From Candidatus Stackebrandtia excrementipullorum (lineage in GTDB: Bacteria > Actinomycetota > Actinomycetes > Mycobacteriales > Micromonosporaceae), in the NCBI GenBank assembly GCA_019113825.1, contig DXGR01000128.1, positions 1-51,307 of the forward strand: a stretch of 51,307 bases of DNA. The letters run 5' to 3'. Every line of letters starts with the position of its first letter. Position 1 is the first letter of the stretch. The notes beneath the pieces are model-generated. The model had not been told where the DNA came from. It saw nothing but the letters and a program-made list of their open reading frames with translations, and made no database searches. Shown one piece after another: positions 39,231 to 48,585 of this stretch. Position numbers and translations under genes: made by a program.

Positions 39231-39423
39231 TATCCCGGGCCAAACGGTCCGAAATCAGACACATTGATGTTCATCGATATTAAGTATCGTCTGATCACCG
39301 TCTGTACTCCTTAATTGGCATTAAGGATGTTGCGTGGTGGCAAAACGTCGGTGTCACGGCTTAACCTGTTAGCTCTCAACCGGCTACGGTTAAGGCAGGA
39401 TCCTCGAGTGAGAGGTGGGACAA

Positions 39424-41217
39424 ATGCCACGTAATGACGACGAGCACGCCCGCAGTGACCGCTTGGAGCGGGAAAGCCAGGACCTCTCCACCCAGGTGGC
39501 CTATTTGCAGGAGGAGCTGGCGCTCGCGCGCCGGAAGCTCACCGAAACGCCCCGGCACGTCCGTCTGTTGGAGGAAAGACTTGCCGCCACGCAGGGGCAG
39601 ATCGAGAAGATGTCCGAACAGAACGAACGCCTGGTCGCGACGCTGAAGGACGCCCGTGAACAGATCGTGACCCTCAAGGAGGAGATCGATCGCCTGGCTC
39701 AGCCGCCCAGCGGATACGGCGTCTTCATCGATGCGAGAGAAGACGGCACCGTCGACGTGTTCACCGGCGGCCGCAAGATGCGTGTCGCCGTGTCGCCGTC
39801 CATAGAGATCGAATCAATGCGGCGAGGCCAGGAGGTCCTGCTCAACGACGCCCTCAACGTCGTGGAGAACCTCGGCTTTGAAACCGCCGGCGACGTGGTC
39901 ACGTTGAAAGAACTGTTGGAAAACGACGAAGGCTTCCCGGACCGGGCGCTGGTGACCTCCCACGCCGATGAGGAACGGGTCGTCCACCTGGCGGACACGC
40001 TGGTCAACGCGCCGCTTCGCGCGGGAGACTCCCTACTCATCGAGCCTCGCGCCGGATACGCCTACGAGCGCATCCAGAAAAGTGAGGTCGAGGAGCTGGT
40101 CCTCGAGGAGGTGCCCGACGTCGACTACGAGTCGATCGGTGGCCTCGACGGTCAGATCGAGCTCATTCGCGATGCGGTCGAGTTGCCGTTTCTCCATGCG
40201 GACCTGTTTGCCGAGTACCAGCTGCGGCCGCCCAAGGGCGTCCTGTTGTACGGGCCTCCCGGCTGCGGTAAGACCCTCATCGCGAAGGCAGTGGCCAACT
40301 CGTTGGCCAAAAAGGTCGCCGAAGCGCGAGGCGACGAGCAGAACGCCGACACTCGCGGCCGGAGCTACTTCTTGAACATCAAGGGGCCGGAGCTTCTCAA
40401 CAAGTACGTGGGTGAGACCGAACGGCACATTCGTTTGGTGTTCCAGCGGGCACGGGAGAAGGCCAGCGAGGGCCAGCCGGTCATCGTGTTCTTCGACGAG
40501 ATGGACTCGGTCTTCCGTACCCGTGGTTCGGGGGTTTCGTCCGACGTCGAGAACACGATCGTTCCTCAGCTGCTGTCCGAGATCGACGGTGTCGAGGGAC
40601 TCGAGAACGTGATCGTCATCGGTGCCTCCAACCGTGAGGACATGATCGACCCGGCGATCCTTCGGCCCGGCCGGTTGGACGTCAAGATCAAGATCGAACG
40701 TCCCGACGCCGAATCGGCGCGTGACATCTTCTCGAAGTACATCACCACCGATCTCCCGCTCAACGACAAGGACGTCGAAGAGCAGGGTGGTAGCCGTGAA
40801 GCCTGCGTTCAGGACATGATCCAGGCGGCGGTGGAGCGCATGTACACCGAGACCGAGGAGAACCGTTTCCTCGAGGTCACCTACGCCGACGGCGACAAGG
40901 AGGTCCTGTACTTCAAGGACTTCAACTCCGGCGCGATGATTCAGAACATCGTCGACCGCGCCAAGAAGATGGCCATCAAGGAGAACCTGAACTCGGGTCA
41001 ACGCGGTATCCGGTTGCATCACCTGCTGGACGCCTGTGTGGACGAGTTCCGTGAGAACGAGGACCTGCCCAACACGACCAACCCGGACGACTGGGCTCGC
41101 ATCTCCGGTAAGAAGGGCGAACGCATCGTCTACATCCGGACGCTGGTGTCGGGTGGTAAGGGCGATGAGTCGGGCCGTTCCATCGACACGGTCAACAGCA
41201 CGGGACAGTACCTGTAA
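39424..41217 (+). CDS. mpa: Proteasome-associated AAA+ ATPase (Mpa/ARC)
   Basis: 597 residues. The N-terminal coiled coil (about 10-85) that captures Pup is followed by tandem OB domains (about 95-235). The AAA+ module has Walker A GPPGCGKT at 277-284, Walker B FFDEMDS (Asp358, Glu359) and Arg-finger region [10 protein letters not shown]. The C-terminus STGQYL carries the penultimate-tyrosine tail that docks on and opens the 20S core. It unfolds pupylated proteins. ATG 39424 with GAGAGGTGG just upstream is preferred over GTG 39415. dop, pup and prcBA, which normally follow, are not in this window. A TACGGT box at 39385-39390 may be the -10. Confidence 0.96.
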
Positions 41218-41429: not shown

Positions 41430-41458
41430 TTGACGATGCGGACCGGGAACGATAATTT
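41430..41458 (+). promoter_or_regulatory. Promoter of the cysteine-rich peptide gene
   Basis: TTGACG (41430-41435), 17-bp spacer, TAATTT (41453-41458). Predicted start near 41465, so the leader is about 50 nt. One of the few places in the window with both a -35 and a -10 box. Confidence 0.6.
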
Positions 41459-41469
41459 CAACGGCTGCA

Positions 41470-41493
41470 ACACCTCTCACCCCGGAGAGGTGT
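41470..41493 (+). promoter_or_regulatory. Leader hairpin before the cysteine-rich peptide gene
   Basis: Perfect 9-bp stem ACACCTCTC / GAGAGGTGT with a 6-nt loop in the untranslated leader, ending 9 nt before the AAGGAG ribosome binding site. Could stabilise the 5' end or act as an attenuator. Confidence 0.55.
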
Positions 41494-41515
41494 CACCAAC
41501 CCAAGGAGCGCCACG

Positions 41516-41716
41516 ATGTTTTCCCTACTGACCGGTATCGGCGACAGGATGTTGGAACGACTCGCGCCGCGTTCTGAGGCATCGGCCAGGCCCGACTGCT
41601 GGGTCGACTCGCAGTTGCAGGGGTGCGGCCCCGGCAAGTTGCGTCTGTGCAAGCGCACGTGTTGCTACGACGGCAGCTGCTCCGCCTGGAGCTGCGGCGG
41701 CTGCAGCACCCCGTAG
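41516..41716 (+). CDS. Small cysteine-rich peptide (8 Cys), possible RiPP-type precursor or secreted/metal-binding peptide
   Basis: 66 residues. I do not recognise the family. The first 24 residues (MFSLLTGIGDRMLERLAPRS...) look like an amphipathic leader. The remaining 42 residues hold all eight cysteines in the spacing C-x8-C-x6-C-x3-C-C-x4-C-x4-C-x2-C, with many Gly, Ser and Trp. Expression evidence is strong: AAGGAG 7 nt before the ATG, a TTGACG/TAATTT promoter, a leader hairpin and its own terminator. No maturase, protease or transporter is adjacent; the nearest gene is a glutamine amidotransferase. Metal binding, disulfide-rich secretion or post-translational modification are all possible. 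No standard Sec signal peptide is visible. Confidence 0.8.
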   Translation: MFSLLTGIGDRMLERLAPRSEASARPDCWVDSQLQGCGPGKLRLCKRTCCYDGSCSAWSCGGCSTP

Positions 41717-41733
41717 CGCCGACCTGCAACGTC

Positions 41734-41767
41734 GACGTGGGCCGGCCGCGCAAGGCCCGCCCACGTC
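41734..41767 (+). terminator. Terminator of the cysteine-rich peptide gene
   Basis: 14-bp stem with one mismatch (GACGTGGGCCGGCC against GGCCCGCCCACGTC), 6-nt loop, then CTTCGC; 17 bp after the stop. Confidence 0.75.
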
Positions 41768-41817: not shown

Positions 41818-42522
41818 ATGCCGAGCGTTCTCTTCATTCAACACACCCCGACAGGCGGCCCGCGACGAGTCGCGACATGGCTGGAGGAAGCCGGAGTCGA
41901 TGTAGCCGTCGTCAAGGGCTTCGAAGGCATGCCCTCCGAGGTGCCCGCGCACGACGGTCTGATCGTGCTCGGCGGCGGATACCTGCCCGACGCCGATGAC
42001 CGTGCGCCGTGGCTCGCACCCACGCGTGACCTTGTGGAGCAGGCCCTCAAGGCGGAGATTCCGGTGCTGGGCATCTGCCTCGGCGGACAAATGCTGGCCC
42101 ACGTCGCCGGTGGCGCCGTGGCCGGTGACGTCGGCGCACCGGAGAAGGGGAGCACCCCCGTCACGATGCGCTCCGAAACGTCGCAGGATCCGCTGTTTCA
42201 CGGGTTCCCGCAAACGGTCGCCGCGATGGAGCACCACATCGACGCGATCACCGAACTTCCCGCGGGCGCAACATGGCTGGCGGAGACGGAACGCTGTCCG
42301 TACCAGGCGTTTCGCGTGGGCCCCGCCGCCTGGGGGTTGCAGTTTCACCCGGAGGTTCTGCCGGAGACGATCCTTAACTGGAACCCCGATGTCTTGGCCG
42401 AACAGGGATTCGACCGTGATGAACTGTACCGACGGGCCGTCGCCGACGAGCCCACGTCCACGCCCGTCTGGCGCACACTGATCGACCGTTTCGCCGAGCA
42501 GGTACACAAGACCGCAGCCTGA
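41818..42522 (+). CDS. Class I glutamine amidotransferase-like protein
   Basis: 234 residues. Triad: Cys87 in GICLGGQ, and His177 with Glu179 in QFHPEV. The first strand VLFIQHTPTGGPRRVATWLEEAG and LIVLGGGYLPD match stand-alone GMP-synthase-type amidotransferase domains, often annotated as GuaA-like or gamma-glutamyl hydrolases. It would release ammonia from glutamine or hydrolyse a gamma-glutamyl bond; the partner is unknown. The ATG sits 7 nt after a TAGGTT box. It follows the terminator of the cysteine-rich peptide gene, so the two are not obviously one operon. Confidence 0.88.
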   Translation: MPSVLFIQHTPTGGPRRVATWLEEAGVDVAVVKGFEGMPSEVPAHDGLIVLGGGYLPDADDRAPWLAPTRDLVEQALKAEIPVLGICLGGQMLAHVAGGAVAGDVGAPEKGSTPVTMRSETSQDPLFHGFPQTVAAMEHHIDAITELPAGATWLAETERCPYQAFRVGPAAWGLQFHPEVLPETILNWNPDVLAEQGFDRDELYRRAVADEPTSTPVWRTLIDRFAEQVHKTAA

Positions 42523-43479: not shown

Positions 43480-44487
43480 GTGTTCGAACCCGGTACCACC
43501 GGAACCGACGAGGTCGTGTTCGCCCGCAAGGGAGTACTCGGTCAGGTGATGTTGAACCGCCCCAAGGCGATCAACGCGTTGACACCGGCCATGATCGAGG
43601 CGCTCCATGTGCGTCTGCGGGAATGGGCCGACGACGATCGCGTCGCCGTGGTGTCTATTCAGGGGGCCGGAGAACGTGGCCTGTGCGCGGGAGGGGACGT
43701 CCGGCGCATCCGTGAGGGGCTTCTCGACGGCACCGGTGACGCCGTGCGATTCTGGCGCAGCGAATACACCGTCAACGAACAGATCGCGACCTATCCTAAG
43801 CCGATCGTGGCGATCATGGACGGGGTCACGATGGGAGGCGGACTCGGTATCTCGGCGCACGCCTCCACCCGGTTGACCACCGAACGATCCCGCATCGCGA
43901 TGCCCGAAACCGCCATCGGGTTTTTTCCCGACGTCGGTATGTGCCACCTACTGGCCGCGGCACCCCACGAACTGGGCACACACATGGCGATGACGGGCGC
44001 CACGATCTCCGGTGCGGAGGCCGTCGGCGCAGGTTTGGCCGACACCGTCGTCGATTCCGGCGACATCCCCACAGTCATCGAACGTCTCCGGTCGGGGGAA
44101 CCCGCTTCCACCCTTATCGCATCGCCGACCACCGGAGACACGCCGCCGGAGTGGATCGCCCGCTGCTACACCGGTGACGACCCGGCCGCCGTTTTCGAGG
44201 CGTTGAACGGCGATGCGGAACCGGCGGCACGTCAGGCGGCGGAACTCATGGCGACACGGGCCCCGCTGTCGGTCGCGGTTGCTCTGGAGGCCGTGCGGCG
44301 CGCCGCGCCGATGACGCTCACGCAGGTCCTGGAACAGGACCTGCGGGTGGGTGCGGCTCTCAGCAGCCGACCCGACTTCGTCGAAGGAGTCAGAGCCGTT
44401 CTCGTGGACAAGGACCACGCCCCGAAGTGGACGCACGCATCGTTGGCGGACGTGACACGGGACGAGGTCCTCGCCGTCTTCGGGTAA
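43480..44487 (+). CDS. Crotonase family, 3-hydroxyisobutyryl-CoA hydrolase type
   Basis: 335 residues. GLCAGGDVRRI and MGGGLGISAHASTRLTTERSRIAMPETAIGFFPDVGM are the signature of the HIBYL-CoA hydrolase branch (ECH_2), with the catalytic Glu in MPETAIG. These enzymes release 3-hydroxyisobutyrate in valine breakdown; some act as enoyl-CoA hydratases. GTG at 43480 is chosen: AGAGGA lies about 10 nt upstream and homology begins with EVVFARKGVLGQVMLNRPKAINAL. Its 3' half is overlapped on the other strand by the open C-terminal extension of the helicase gene. Confidence 0.9.
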   Translation: MFEPGTTGTDEVVFARKGVLGQVMLNRPKAINALTPAMIEALHVRLREWADDDRVAVVSIQGAGERGLCAGGDVRRIREGLLDGTGDAVRFWRSEYTVNEQIATYPKPIVAIMDGVTMGGGLGISAHASTRLTTERSRIAMPETAIGFFPDVGMCHLLAAAPHELGTHMAMTGATISGAEAVGAGLADTVVDSGDIPTVIERLRSGEPASTLIASPTTGDTPPEWIARCYTGDDPAAVFEALNGDAEPAARQAAELMATRAPLSVAVALEAVRRAAPMTLTQVLEQDLRVGAALSSRPDFVEGVRAVLVDKDHAPKWTHASLADVTRDEVLAVFG

Positions 44488-47400
44488 CGACTGACGCACC
44501 GCCGTGATCGCCCTGGTCAACGCTTCGACGATGCGTGGGCCACGGCGACTGAAACCAAGCGCCTTGATCGCGTCCCGGATCAGTTCGTCATCCGTGCGCA
44601 GCCGCCGGTCCTCGTTGATCCACTGGATGAGCATCACCAATTCGCCGTCGGAGTAGTTGCGGATACTTTTGCGAGGCGTCTTGATCGGACACTTGCGCCG
44701 CGACCGTGGTTTCGGTGCCACCGCCTCGGGCGTCCGAGGTGCCGGTGGCCGGACGGACGCCGTGTCGGGTTTGTCGGCGTCCACGATGGCCGCGTTGTAG
44801 GCCTCGCGTGCTTTGAGGACCTCGGCCATCGGATCGGCGAACCAGTCCGGTGACCAGATGCGGTGCACGGCCCAACCGAGGCGCGACAGCACATGGCCAC
44901 GCAGGCGGTCCCGGTCACGAACCGACAGGTCGTCGGGCAACCCCAATCCGTCGACGTCGATGGCGAGTACCATGCGATCGCGGTCCCGAGGATGCGGGAC
45001 GGCGATGTCGATGCGGTGCCTGGAGGCCCCGTACCGGGCGATGACCGGCATTTCAGCCGCCGCCAGGCGTTCCCGCACATCCCGTTCGAACGCGTTGAGC
45101 GGCTCACTCGACGACAGGGACCGTGCCGCCGCGGCGCCCCCCGCCGCGGCGTACTCCAGGTAACCGCGCAGCATGCGGGCGCCTGCCGCGTTGAGACGCT
45201 GCGGATCCAGGTCGTCGGCTCCGAACGTGCTGACTGTGACCATCCGACGCTTCGCACGTGTCACCGCGACATTGAGGCGACGATGCCCTCCGTCGTGGTT
45301 CAACGGCCCGAAGTGGTGCCGCATGCGGCCTTGTGGGCTCTTGGCGTAACCGAGCGACATGATGATCGCGTCACGCTCGTCACCCTGTACACGTTCCAGG
45401 TTTTTCACGAAAAACGGCTCGACGTTGTCCGGTGCGAAGAACCGGTCGAGTTCCGGCCGTCCCGCCCTCGCCCGCTCCAGGGCGTCGTCGATCCGCCGGG
45501 CGTGCTTGACGTTCATCGTGATCACCCCCAATGTCTCGTCGGGGTGGGCATGGGCGTGCTCGAGAATCAGCTCGACGACGCGGTCGACCTCGGCCTGCAC
45601 CGGAGACTCGTCGTCGTGGCACAGGATGTGCCGCACCGCCGCGGGTTCCCGTCCCGCGAAGGTGATCAGCCGTCCGTTGTAAACGTGGCGGTTGGAGAAG
45701 TCGATCAGCCGTTCGTCCCGGCTGCGGTAATGCCACGTCAGCGTACGCGTCGGCAACAGCACCTCCAGCGACTCCAGAATCGACTCGAGGCCGGACGCGA
45801 CCGACAGGTCCTCGTCGTCGGTCTCCTGTTCCGCCGACGCGAAGAACCGGGTCGGCGGCAACTGGCGGGTATCGCCGGTGACGACGACCCGGTCGGCGCG
45901 CATGATCGACGGCACCGCATCCGATACCGGTATCTGACTGGCCTCGTCGAACACGACGACGTCGAACAGTCGGCGCGCGGGAAGCTGCTGGCTGACCACC
46001 AACGGAGACATCGCCACACACGGCGTCACGGCGGTGACGATGTCGGGCGCCTGGTCGAACAGGACACGAAGCGACGCCTGTCGGCGTTTGCGTACCAACT
46101 GTTTGCGCAGAAACGTCTCCTGCGTCGGATGACGATCACGTGCCGCGTACAGCCGTTCCGCAGCGATGCGCCTGATTCGGCCCGGGTTGGAGGCGACATG
46201 TTCGGCGTCCGCGGTGACGAACTCCTCGCGCGCGGCCCGCAGCACCTCACCCGAGACGCGGTGGAACCGCGGGTCGTCTTTCGCGACCCGGTCGACCAGG
46301 GCGCGGGCAAACGACCGATCGAAGACCACGACCGGGTCGTTCGTTGTCGTCAACGTCTCCAAGCCCACAGCGTCAAGACGCTGCCGCAACTGCCGCAGCC
46401 GCGCCACCAACGGCGGGCTCACCCGGTCGGACGCCAACTGTTTGGCCCACACCACCACATCGGACAACGGCAGCTTCTCAAGACCGGTGCGGTCGAACAC
46501 CGTGGCGAGTTTGGCAAGGTGTGTTTCGATCTGCTTCAACAGCTCGGTGTCGGCGGGCAGATCTGCGGGGACAAACGGTGTGGTCCCGTCACGGGACACG
46601 TCGTTCCACGCGTCAAGCCGGTCGGCGACGTCACTCAACCGTTCGTGCAGGACGCGCCGTGAAGTCTCGCCCTTGGCGACCGCGGCTATCTGACGGCGCA
46701 GCCGCCGACGGCGCAGCCACCGCATGGACACGTCGTGGTCGGCCCGCCAACGTCGGGTGCCGGTGGCGGCCAACCATTCCGGCAGGGGCACCGACCACAC
46801 GATCGGATCGAACAGTTTCTCGGTGCGCGCGATTCCGTTCAGCAGCTCCAGACGTTGGGCGAACCCGTCGATGCTCGCGGCCAGGCGGGTTCGTGTCGTC
46901 GTCGCGACGCGAGCGATCGCCTCTTCCAGCCGGGGAAGCAGTTGCACGAGCTCGTCGGCGATGGTCAACGCCCGTGTCACCTCGTCGACGTCGGACAGGT
47001 GAGCCCCGAACCAGGCGGTGTCGTCTGTGGACATGGTCAATCCGCCCAGGTCGACGTATTCGCGCAGGGCCTTGCGCACGTTTTCGGCCGTGTGCGGATC
47101 GAGACGGTCCAGTGTGTCGTCATCGACGGGCACGGTCGGCCCGTCGCCCAGTTCGAGCAACCGGCACTGAGCGGCGAAAACCGAACGCTCCCACGGTTTC
47201 CGAGTGCCGAAGACGGTTTCGCGGTACGTCTGCAGTGTTTCGCTTGACCGACGCAGGCTCTTCTGCAGCTTTTCGACGTCGGGCTTGCCGACGTCGCCGG
47301 CCTTGTCCAGAGTGTTCTTCAGCTTGTCGACGATGCGGTGCCGTGCCGTTGCGCCGTCATGCGCGTCCATCACCAGATCGTCCAGTCCCAGCTCGGTGAT

Positions 47401-48504
47401 GCGACGCATGACGACGTCGATGGCGGCGCGTTTCTCGGCGACGAACAATACTCGTTTACCCTGCGCGATCATCGTCGCGATGAGGTTCACAATGGTTTGG
47501 CTTTTCCCCGTGCCCGGGGGACCTTGGACGACCAGGCTGTGGCCGGCTGCGGCCGCGTTGACGGCTTCGCTTTGCGAGGAATCGGCGTCGAGAACCAGGA
47601 ACTCGTTCTCGACGTCGGGCGCTACGACCGGGTCGGTCGATGTTGAACGCAGCCGTTGTTGAGCCTGAGCGTCACCGCTGACGGCCGCGATCACGTCGTG
47701 GTCGCGTAGGAGCGCTCCTGCGGCTTCCAGGTCCTTCACCATCGGTAGCTTGGCGTAACTGAACGCCGCCACCACCTGCCGACGGTGAATACGGAACCCG
47801 GTCATGCGTCCGTCGGTCGACCGCAACAACTGTCGCGATACCAGGCTCAGTAGTGAATCGGGGTTTGCGTCGGTCGGGATGGGGAATTGGTCGTCGCCGA
47901 TGTCGATGCCGGCCTGTGTGGCCAGGTACTCCAAGAGCACCGGGTTGACCGCGGGGTCGTCGTCGATTTCGAGCCGGAAGTCGGCGTGCCGGGATCCGGT
48001 CGGTGTGATGTCCACCGGGTACAGCAACACCGGAGCCGCCGGCTGGTATCCCGGATCGTGCCAGGTGGCCATACCCAACGCGAGATAGCCCGCGCGGACC
48101 CCTCGCTCCTCGGCCAGTGCCGCGACCTTTCGGTGGATCGCACGCAGCCGCCGCACCGCGTCGTCCCGTTTCCCCGCCGTGGTCGACTCGTTGAACAGGT
48201 CGCCCACGCGAAGTGACTTGCCTTTGACCAGCGACGTGACGACCTCGGACGGCACGGACTCCAGGTCCAGCGTCGATGCCGACAAATCCTTGTAGTACAA
48301 CAGCGGATTGCGGCGGCTCAGGTCGATCAAGGCCGCCTGCCAGTCGCGTACCGCCGCGCCGACTCCTGTCGCCCCGAGGGAGGGGCCCTCTGTACCGGCC
48401 ATGTCCACATCGTCCTTACCGTCGGTGGGGTCGGGGACTTCAACGCCCACCGAACCACTCGCACCGCAGGTTACTTGATAGGCGCCCACGCCACCGTCGT
48501 CCAT
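43948..48504 (-). CDS. DUF4011 / superfamily 1 helicase / Vsr-like nuclease fusion protein
   Basis: 1518 residues as an open frame. The N-terminal DUF4011-type region contains WQAALIDLSRRNPLLYYKDL (about 55-75). The helicase has Walker A GPPGTGKS at 328-335, motif II DEAS followed by QIPVSD, motif III TGDTRQLPP and motif VI AVTRAKRR. The C-terminal nuclease-like domain (MTES_1575/Vsr type) is seen in YGASRHRIDIAVPHP, LAIDVDGLG, RDRDRLRGHVLSRLGW and HRIWSPDWF. The family usually ends near ALGFSRRGPRIVEALTRAI, which falls at about 44500. Here no stop follows, and 180 more residues are read antisense to the crotonase gene. ATG 48504 follows GGGGG; ATG 48402 is an alternative. Probably a phage-defence or nucleic-acid-surveillance protein (inference). 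Confidence 0.85.
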   Translation of the reverse strand: MDDGGVGAYQVTCGASGSVGVEVPDPTDGKDDVDMAGTEGPSLGATGVGAAVRDWQAALIDLSRRNPLLYYKDLSASTLDLESVPSEVVTSLVKGKSLRVGDLFNESTTAGKRDDAVRRLRAIHRKVAALAEERGVRAGYLALGMATWHDPGYQPAAPVLLYPVDITPTGSRHADFRLEIDDDPAVNPVLLEYLATQAGIDIGDDQFPIPTDANPDSLLSLVSRQLLRSTDGRMTGFRIHRRQVVAAFSYAKLPMVKDLEAAGALLRDHDVIAAVSGDAQAQQRLRSTSTDPVVAPDVENEFLVLDADSSQSEAVNAAAAGHSLVVQGPPGTGKSQTIVNLIATMIAQGKRVLFVAEKRAAIDVVMRRITELGLDDLVMDAHDGATARHRIVDKLKNTLDKAGDVGKPDVEKLQKSLRRSSETLQTYRETVFGTRKPWERSVFAAQCRLLELGDGPTVPVDDDTLDRLDPHTAENVRKALREYVDLGGLTMSTDDTAWFGAHLSDVDEVTRALTIADELVQLLPRLEEAIARVATTTRTRLAASIDGFAQRLELLNGIARTEKLFDPIVWSVPLPEWLAATGTRRWRADHDVSMRWLRRRRLRRQIAAVAKGETSRRVLHERLSDVADRLDAWNDVSRDGTTPFVPADLPADTELLKQIETHLAKLATVFDRTGLEKLPLSDVVVWAKQLASDRVSPPLVARLRQLRQRLDAVGLETLTTTNDPVVVFDRSFARALVDRVAKDDPRFHRVSGEVLRAAREEFVTADAEHVASNPGRIRRIAAERLYAARDRHPTQETFLRKQLVRKRRQASLRVLFDQAPDIVTAVTPCVAMSPLVVSQQLPARRLFDVVVFDEASQIPVSDAVPSIMRADRVVVTGDTRQLPPTRFFASAEQETDDEDLSVASGLESILESLEVLLPTRTLTWHYRSRDERLIDFSNRHVYNGRLITFAGREPAAVRHILCHDDESPVQAEVDRVVELILEHAHAHPDETLGVITMNVKHARRIDDALERARAGRPELDRFFAPDNVEPFFVKNLERVQGDERDAIIMSLGYAKSPQGRMRHHFGPLNHDGGHRRLNVAVTRAKRRMVTVSTFGADDLDPQRLNAAGARMLRGYLEYAAAGGAAAARSLSSSEPLNAFERDVRERLAAAEMPVIARYGASRHRIDIAVPHPRDRDRMVLAIDVDGLGLPDDLSVRDRDRLRGHVLSRLGWAVHRIWSPDWFADPMAEVLKAREAYNAAIVDADKPDTASVRPPAPRTPEAVAPKPRSRRKCPIKTPRKSIRNYSDGELVMLIQWINEDRRLRTDDELIRDAIKALGFSRRGPRIVEALTRAITAVRQSLPEDGEDLVPCHVRQRCVRPLRGVVLVHENGSDSFDEVGSAAESRTHPQVLFQDLRERHRRGAPHGLQSNRDRQRGPCRHEFRRLTCRRFRIAVQRLENGGRVVTGVAAGDPLRRRVSGGRRCDKGGSGFPRPETFDDCGDVAGIDDGVGQTCADGLRTGDRGARHRHVCAQFVGCRGQ

Positions 48505-48585
48505 GTTTCCCCCTTCGACCACAGCAATATCACGATCGGTGGTCGAAGTCGTGGTTCTGGCCGCTCAACGCGCCCCGGGTCGGCG

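Follow-up and report, generated by a model that had tools for sequence, protein, structure and literature searches.

Prochlorosins combine a conserved leader with variable cores, and a single promiscuous machine, ProcM, serves many such substrates. MauE and MauD are helper proteins in the maturation of methylamine dehydrogenase, where the substrate is an enzyme subunit. In Streptomyces, the genome-mining tool decRiPPter returned three candidate RiPP families with mauE, one of which also has mauD (Kloosterman et al., 2020; PMC7794033). The precursors of these clusters carry at least eight Cys residues, and a role for mauE and mauD in precursor modification was suggested, that of MauE in disulfide formation being reported as speculation (PMC7794033). 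Small disulfide-rich peptides, again including some from Actinobacteria, are also described as cis-defensins and actifensin, the latter with up to seven copies per operon (PMC11561630, PMC6989792); the published search for cis-defensins used the pattern CX(2,18)CX(3)CX(2,12)CX(4,17)CXC and further required a predicted signal peptide (PMC11561630).

The window analysed here, a whole stretch of 51,307 nucleotides from Candidatus Stackebrandtia excrementipullorum, holds a gene for a small Cys-rich peptide. This gene probably encodes a precursor belonging to a large family of actinobacterial peptides that are exported under the direction of a leader and predicted to carry disulfide bridges. Its features and immediate flanks are the following.

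39415-41217: mpa, 5' of the peptide unit
41430-41458, + strand: promoter-like site TTGACG (41430-41435)-N17-TAATTT (41453-41458), read directly
41470-41493, + strand: 9-bp hairpin in the 5' leader RNA (RNA fold, -14.4 kcal/mol)
41503-41508, + strand: ribosome-binding site AAGGAG, from the sequence
41516-41716, + strand: precursor peptide gene, 66 amino acids with 8 Cys, ATG at 41516 and TAG at 41714-41716 (open reading frame and family membership)
41516-41587, + strand: leader, residues 1-24, ending A22-S23-A24 (conserved segment; AlphaFold2 pLDDT <50)
41588-41713, + strand: predicted disulfide-rich core, residues 25-66 (8 Cys; AlphaFold2 strands)
41734-41767, + strand: terminator-like hairpin of 13 pairs with no T-run (RNA fold)
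41818-42522: class I glutamine amidotransferase, 3' of the peptide unit

The 66-codon frame with its ribosome-binding site, promoter-like site, and 5' and downstream hairpins is a confirmed observation. The description of a self-contained transcription unit in an earlier note on this DNA fits it: promoter, 9-bp leader hairpin, AAGGAG and frame are all read directly as that note had described them, and the downstream hairpin is present too, but it has 13 rather than 14 pairs and no T-run. The Cys spacing given there was wrong at the second gap, which is x7 and not x6, so that the window peptide reads C-x8-C-x7-C-x3-CC-x4-C-x4-C-x2-C. A strict consensus scanner called neither a promoter nor a terminator on the peptide unit, and these two elements are therefore plausible and not strong on their own.

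A starting set of relatives was gathered by tblastn, which gave further copies in the peptide's own genome and, in 61 genomes, many more with noise mixed in. The 61-genome search gave 28 loci of relatives, from which L010-L015 and L017-L029 were discarded as noise on reading; 13 peptides with the common leader, a Cys-rich core and a ribosome-binding site plausible by eye were kept after their translations had been read. A profile search was then positive in 62 of 150 genomes of the same family at E <= 0.01. At E <= 0.1 it gave 14 matches in the window's genome (G000), 35 in G001, 21 in G003, 61 in G010 and 36 in G029, and the same-genus genomes G002 and G004 had one match each, at E about 0.03, which may be chance. 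The 14 matches in G000 appeared likewise in class-wide (296 genomes) and phylum-wide (246 genomes) scans; 12 of these copies were read whole, one (L071) is cut by a contig edge, and one, on contig C19, lies outside the set. At the class level, 21 of the 296 genomes were positive at E <= 0.001, counting the window's own and a false match in G491, which holds no Cys-rich peptide and was dropped before the redoxin comparison described below. The class-wide matches in family f34 span only profile positions 25-60, and 18 genomes of a single family from the same order were negative in that scan. At E <= 0.0001, five of the 246 phylum-level genomes were positive: the window's own, a second one from its class, and three from outside the class (f69) whose weak matches are putative. 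Judged by sequence, the window peptide is thus a member of a large paralogous family and not a lone peptide. The earlier note had named a lack of homologues with conserved Cys as the finding that would sink its proposal; the search returned homologues with conserved leader and Cys in many genomes, and the idea survived.

Family-wide features were counted in 94 members, taken from stretches fetched around the matches after removal of overlapping frames and of one copy at a contig edge. The motif D-[RAGSKTLV] occurs within residues 4-16 in 92 of the 94, and A-x-A between residues 15 and 32 in 84. Mean pairwise identity among 71 members was 39% for the leader and 28% for the core, falling to 13% when the shared Cys of the core are left aside. 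The cores vary in length and in Cys spacing, with 79 distinct frameworks among the 94 members and from 4 to 10 Cys in each, and yet 88 of the 94 members, and 73 of the 79 frameworks, have an even number of Cys; all 12 members read whole in G000 have 6, 8 or 10. As a control, ten other residues were counted after residue 24; the members with an even number ranged from 33 for R to 60 for T, out of 94. Cys counted only after residue 24 is even in 74 of 94 rather than 88, since in some members the first Cys of the core falls on that residue or ahead of it. The even numbers of Cys point to disulfides.

Searches of Pfam and NCBIfam with the window peptide and 34 members, and of PDB sequences, found no relatives above chance; weak profile matches with E of 0.029 or more, none of them found in more than one of the 34 members, were judged to be chance; one of these, at E 0.03, was to a family of Cys-rich targets of radical-SAM enzymes. 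The large predicted repertoire has no Pfam or NCBIfam model. The Nif11-type leader was likewise not matched by the 24-residue window leader in the Pfam and NCBIfam searches (window peptide and 34 members). These results also bear on the notion of a cytoplasmic peptide or regulator that binds Zn or Fe-S, for which the CC and CxxC spacings, the small size and the isolated genes may be cited. Several observations speak against metal binding, one of three options in the earlier note: the even Cys numbers, which extend over 73 of 79 frameworks with no fixed four-Cys ligand pattern, the A-x-A at the leader end, the association with exporter and peptidase genes, and the lack of any Pfam or NCBIfam match above chance; we regard it as highly improbable. 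The interpretation in that note is supported in part: the option of a disulfide-rich secreted peptide with a leader, whose logic is like that of RiPPs, finds support in the Cys parity, the division into leader and core, and the association with the MauE, MauD-like, ABC and S26 genes described below.

Signals around the genes were also examined across the family. A promoter-like site is present within 200 nt upstream in 7 of 94 members, against 0.67 expected. The 5' leader hairpin is not family-wide (mean upstream fold z -0.4; below -2 in 12 of 94), whereas the 70 nt downstream of the genes are unusually foldable (mean z -2.7; below -2 in 59 of 94). Pentamers of the ribosome-binding type stand just before the chosen start in 73 of 94 members and in none of the 94 at the control position 60-75 nt upstream, the former figure being biased upwards because the quality of this site entered the choice of start.

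With AlphaFold2, run on nine alignment rows, residues 1-24 of the window peptide were predicted to be disordered (pLDDT <50) and the core, residues 25-66, to form a confident three-stranded sheet with strands at 28-38, 41-50 and 59-64, pLDDT by block being 82-93 across residues 31-66. The split between disorder and fold in this model coincides with the expected S26 cut between ASA and R. C45 and C60 are both missing in homologue L099, which keeps the other six Cys, and this concerted change leads to the prediction that the two form one disulfide pair; homologue L102 lacks C45, C60 and also C50, leaving an odd count. An automatic comparison of Cys changes over 137 pairs contained many poor alignments, and for this reason the pair of the window peptide and L099 alone was used. 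Comparison of the core model with solved chains gave no clear match among those compared; the laterosporulins (PDB 4ozk, 6lwy, 6lwz), short bacteriocins, align over the whole of residues 25-66, and no solved fold stands out. The cis-defensin pattern fits 15 of 94 members, the majority of them near relatives of each other; shuffled cores give an expectation of 4.4 and, over 300 rounds, no more than 10. It is found in two siblings from G000 (L067:8156-8314 and L064:7849-8016). The window peptide does not fit it, and its charged leader differs from the predicted signal peptide of the published cis-defensins. A pattern scan for viral relatives found none.

Genes beside the peptides differ with copy number. 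Across 41 stretches, a part of all copies in five high-copy genomes, no common neighbour was found other than members of widespread families and flanks that are orthologous; four or more of the stretches in G000 have flanks in common with G003 or G001. At 20 loci of low-copy genomes, an S26 peptidase was present in at least 14, a MauD-like redoxin in at least 13 and MauE in at least 9, all of them lower bounds because the ORF caller missed some genes, such as the MauD-like gene in G133. A cluster of ABC proteins, which also holds unrelated ones, was represented at 18 of these loci and a regulator cluster at 11; all five kinds of gene occur together at 5 or 6. Pfam searches with ten neighbour proteins supported MauE (9e-29), Peptidase_S26 (1e-22), ABC proteins and BTAD-type regulators; "MauD-like" is a label given here, Pfam showing only weak AhpC-TSA or Redoxin matches. 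Related large proteins forming one cluster are encoded near L102, L103, L105, L106, L109, L110, L112, L114, L117, L119, L120 and L121; the two of them that were scanned are BTAD/NB-ARC/TPR regulators, and the gene is sometimes divergent and adjoins the peptide.

The redoxin was present in 60 of the 62 peptide-positive genomes of the same family, against a base rate of 84 in 200 sampled. The peptide scan sampled 150 genomes and the redoxin scan 200, the 60 of 62 being counted among the redoxin matches; the co-occurrence p-values presume that the smaller sample is nested within the larger, and nine MauD-positive genomes of the 200 fall beyond the peptide scan. Outside the family, all 19 peptide-positive genomes have the redoxin, compared with 1 of 20 controls (a weak match), 18 of these controls belonging to one family. 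There, a redoxin gene is no more than 5 kb away from 45 of 47 peptides, and a peptide no more than 5 kb away from 38 of 39 redoxin genes. The MauE and MauD-like profiles match one open frame in three of the four f34 genomes read (L240, L242 and L243, in G280, G333 and G354); this single frame, which stands beside a Cys-rich peptide with a different leader, suggests a natural fusion.

Signal peptidase prefers A-x-A, and the leader end of the family resembles such a site. One could accordingly suppose that the peptides leave through Sec with no dedicated machine and fold spontaneously, and 10 of 94 leaders do contain an 11-residue stretch of mean hydropathy >= 1.6. The leader is charged, with a mean best hydropathy over the 94 members of 0.94, and from genome to genome the family goes with the redoxin gene and stands next to genes for ABC and S26 proteins, all of which makes export of this kind very unlikely.

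In the window's own genome, contig C74 (locus L155) carries one operon with MauE, redoxin, ABC and S26 genes, whose order and surroundings are the same as in G001 and G003. A peptide gene stands directly before MauE in G001; none was found there in G000, and no family member lies on C74 among the matches listed. Both CxxC and Ser/Lys motifs have catalytic roles, and those of the C74 operon are intact: the Ser and Lys of S26, CSAC in the redoxin and CACF in MauE. The conserved partner gene that the earlier note had proposed to look for exists, but in the window's genome it is on another contig, the peptide gene being unlinked to its processing genes. Given one operon on C74 and no peptide found beside it, this machine probably serves the 14 scattered peptides of G000 in trans. 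G004 has no MauE match, only a weak redoxin match (9.6e-7) and one marginal peptide match, and in G002 MauE, redoxin and S26 genes stand beside a small divergent peptide (L160:10986-11141) with a leader-like start and Cys, which the family profile missed; in this small set, peptide presence therefore follows the machine.

The preferred reading, that of a leader-directed, exported and disulfide-bridged peptide, may be put as a sequence of steps whose order is itself proposed. A dedicated ABC exporter would recognise the charged, amphipathic leader of 24 residues. While the peptide is exported or afterwards, its core would receive four disulfides from a MauD-like CxxC redoxin that is anchored in the membrane and would in turn be recharged by the membrane protein MauE. 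The S26 protease of the operon, of the signal-peptidase type, would cut after A22-S23-A24 and release a disulfide miniprotein of roughly 42 residues with three strands. The four maturation genes on C74 would then form one machine for a scattered repertoire, acting in trans. Antagonism of competitors is our guess for the role of the peptides.

The Cys residues might instead enter some other cross-link, such as lanthionine or sactionine, made by an enzyme encoded elsewhere, with MauD and MauE only setting the thiol redox state. The leader and core layout is common to many RiPPs, the cores contain Ser and Thr, one member has the weak radical-SAM target match noted above, and LanC-like proteins are present in G000. 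The LanC-like counts do not track the peptides (2 matches in G000, 7 in G004 with its marginal peptide match, none in G002), lanthionines join Cys to Ser or Thr and would not force the even Cys numbers of 88 in 94 members, and the genes that adjoin the peptides are redox genes; we consider such a cross-link rather unlikely. The LanC-like domains of G000 (C137:15402-16460 and C124:44106-44984) lie in frames of 1408 and 975 amino acids, which, by their domains, are named here as lanthipeptide-type synthetases.

Compared with the decRiPPter candidates, the enzyme-guided disulfide family proposed here is likewise actinobacterial and associated with mauE and mauD, and the 8 Cys of the window peptide agree with precursors of at least 8. 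As published, those candidates are uncharacterised and lie inside clusters, whereas here a superfamily is defined by its leader and, in some genomes, consists of solo, scattered genes; an ABC exporter and an S26 peptidase also belong to the machine here, which sets it apart from the published description (PMC7794033). MauE in the cluster of the precursor, the decRiPPter trait, is seen at 9 or more of the 20 low-copy loci, but not for the window gene itself, where MauE is on C74. Likewise, a leader-core precursor with linked processing genes, as in RiPPs, is found for the family, the processing genes of the window member being unlinked. One machine for many substrates recalls ProcM, but that is a lanthipeptide synthetase working on Nif11-family precursors, whereas the machine here would be one of redox, export and protease functions; relative to methylamine dehydrogenase maturation, the helper proteins are related and the substrate is a small peptide rather than an enzyme subunit. 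A published definition of the family, a scattered repertoire of this kind or a later characterisation was not found in the literature searched, which was mostly non-subscription.

If this reading is true, one small machine would fold and export many unrelated disulfide frameworks behind one leader, the leader and four genes would be candidates for a general means of producing disulfide-rich peptides in bacterial hosts, and a large peptide repertoire would be exposed. A MauE/MauD-type role in disulfide formation would become testable on a small substrate. The repertoire of this bacterium, about fourteen Cys-rich peptides behind a common start tag, may be likened to a bacterial counterpart of venom. 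A bolder form, which we would give an even chance, holds that this is a separate ribosomal product class with enzyme-guided disulfides only, in which one MauE/MauD/ABC/S26 machine serves dozens of unlinked precursors, each transcribed on its own, and that the combinatorial, venom-like repertoire, which in some actinobacteria would reach about 60 miniproteins, some of them defensin-patterned, has spread by insertion of whole units into intergenic slots.

Copy number varies greatly between genomes, and relatives have mpa and the amidotransferase with no peptide gene, as might be expected if the genes were decayed or neutral small frames spread as cassettes, with no product today. Pooled over 14 close pairs chosen by hand, dN/dS was about 0.36 for the leader and 0.46 for the core, indicating purifying selection; core pN was about equal to or above pS in 3 of the 14, and positive selection on the cores was considered and is unsupported by the pooled codon-change counts. 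Although those three pairs would suit neutral frames, the pooled core value, the downstream hairpins and the conservation of orthologous cores between species (87% and 76% identity in two examples) oppose them, and we hold this account to be highly improbable. Several pairs combine diverged cores with leaders that are near-identical even at synonymous sites, a pattern suggestive of homogenised leaders or exchanged cores; near-identical leader DNA with strongly diverged cores was noted for L097, L085, L016/L039 and L102/L099.

At the site itself, mpa lies near the amidotransferase with no detectable peptide gene in G001, G002 and G003, so that gain or loss at this site concerned the complete window unit; no amidotransferase was found next to mpa in G004. 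The earlier note had drawn attention to the position right behind mpa, and no functional meaning was seen in it: a link to mpa is unsupported, neither Mpa nor the amidotransferase being recovered by tblastn from the 75 stretches around other members and operons. Elsewhere in the window, the reverse strand at 43948-48522 encodes a 1524-amino-acid protein with DUF4011, AAA_11/AAA_12 helicase and REase_MTES_1575 domains, which we take to resemble a helicase-nuclease of the kind found among defence genes.
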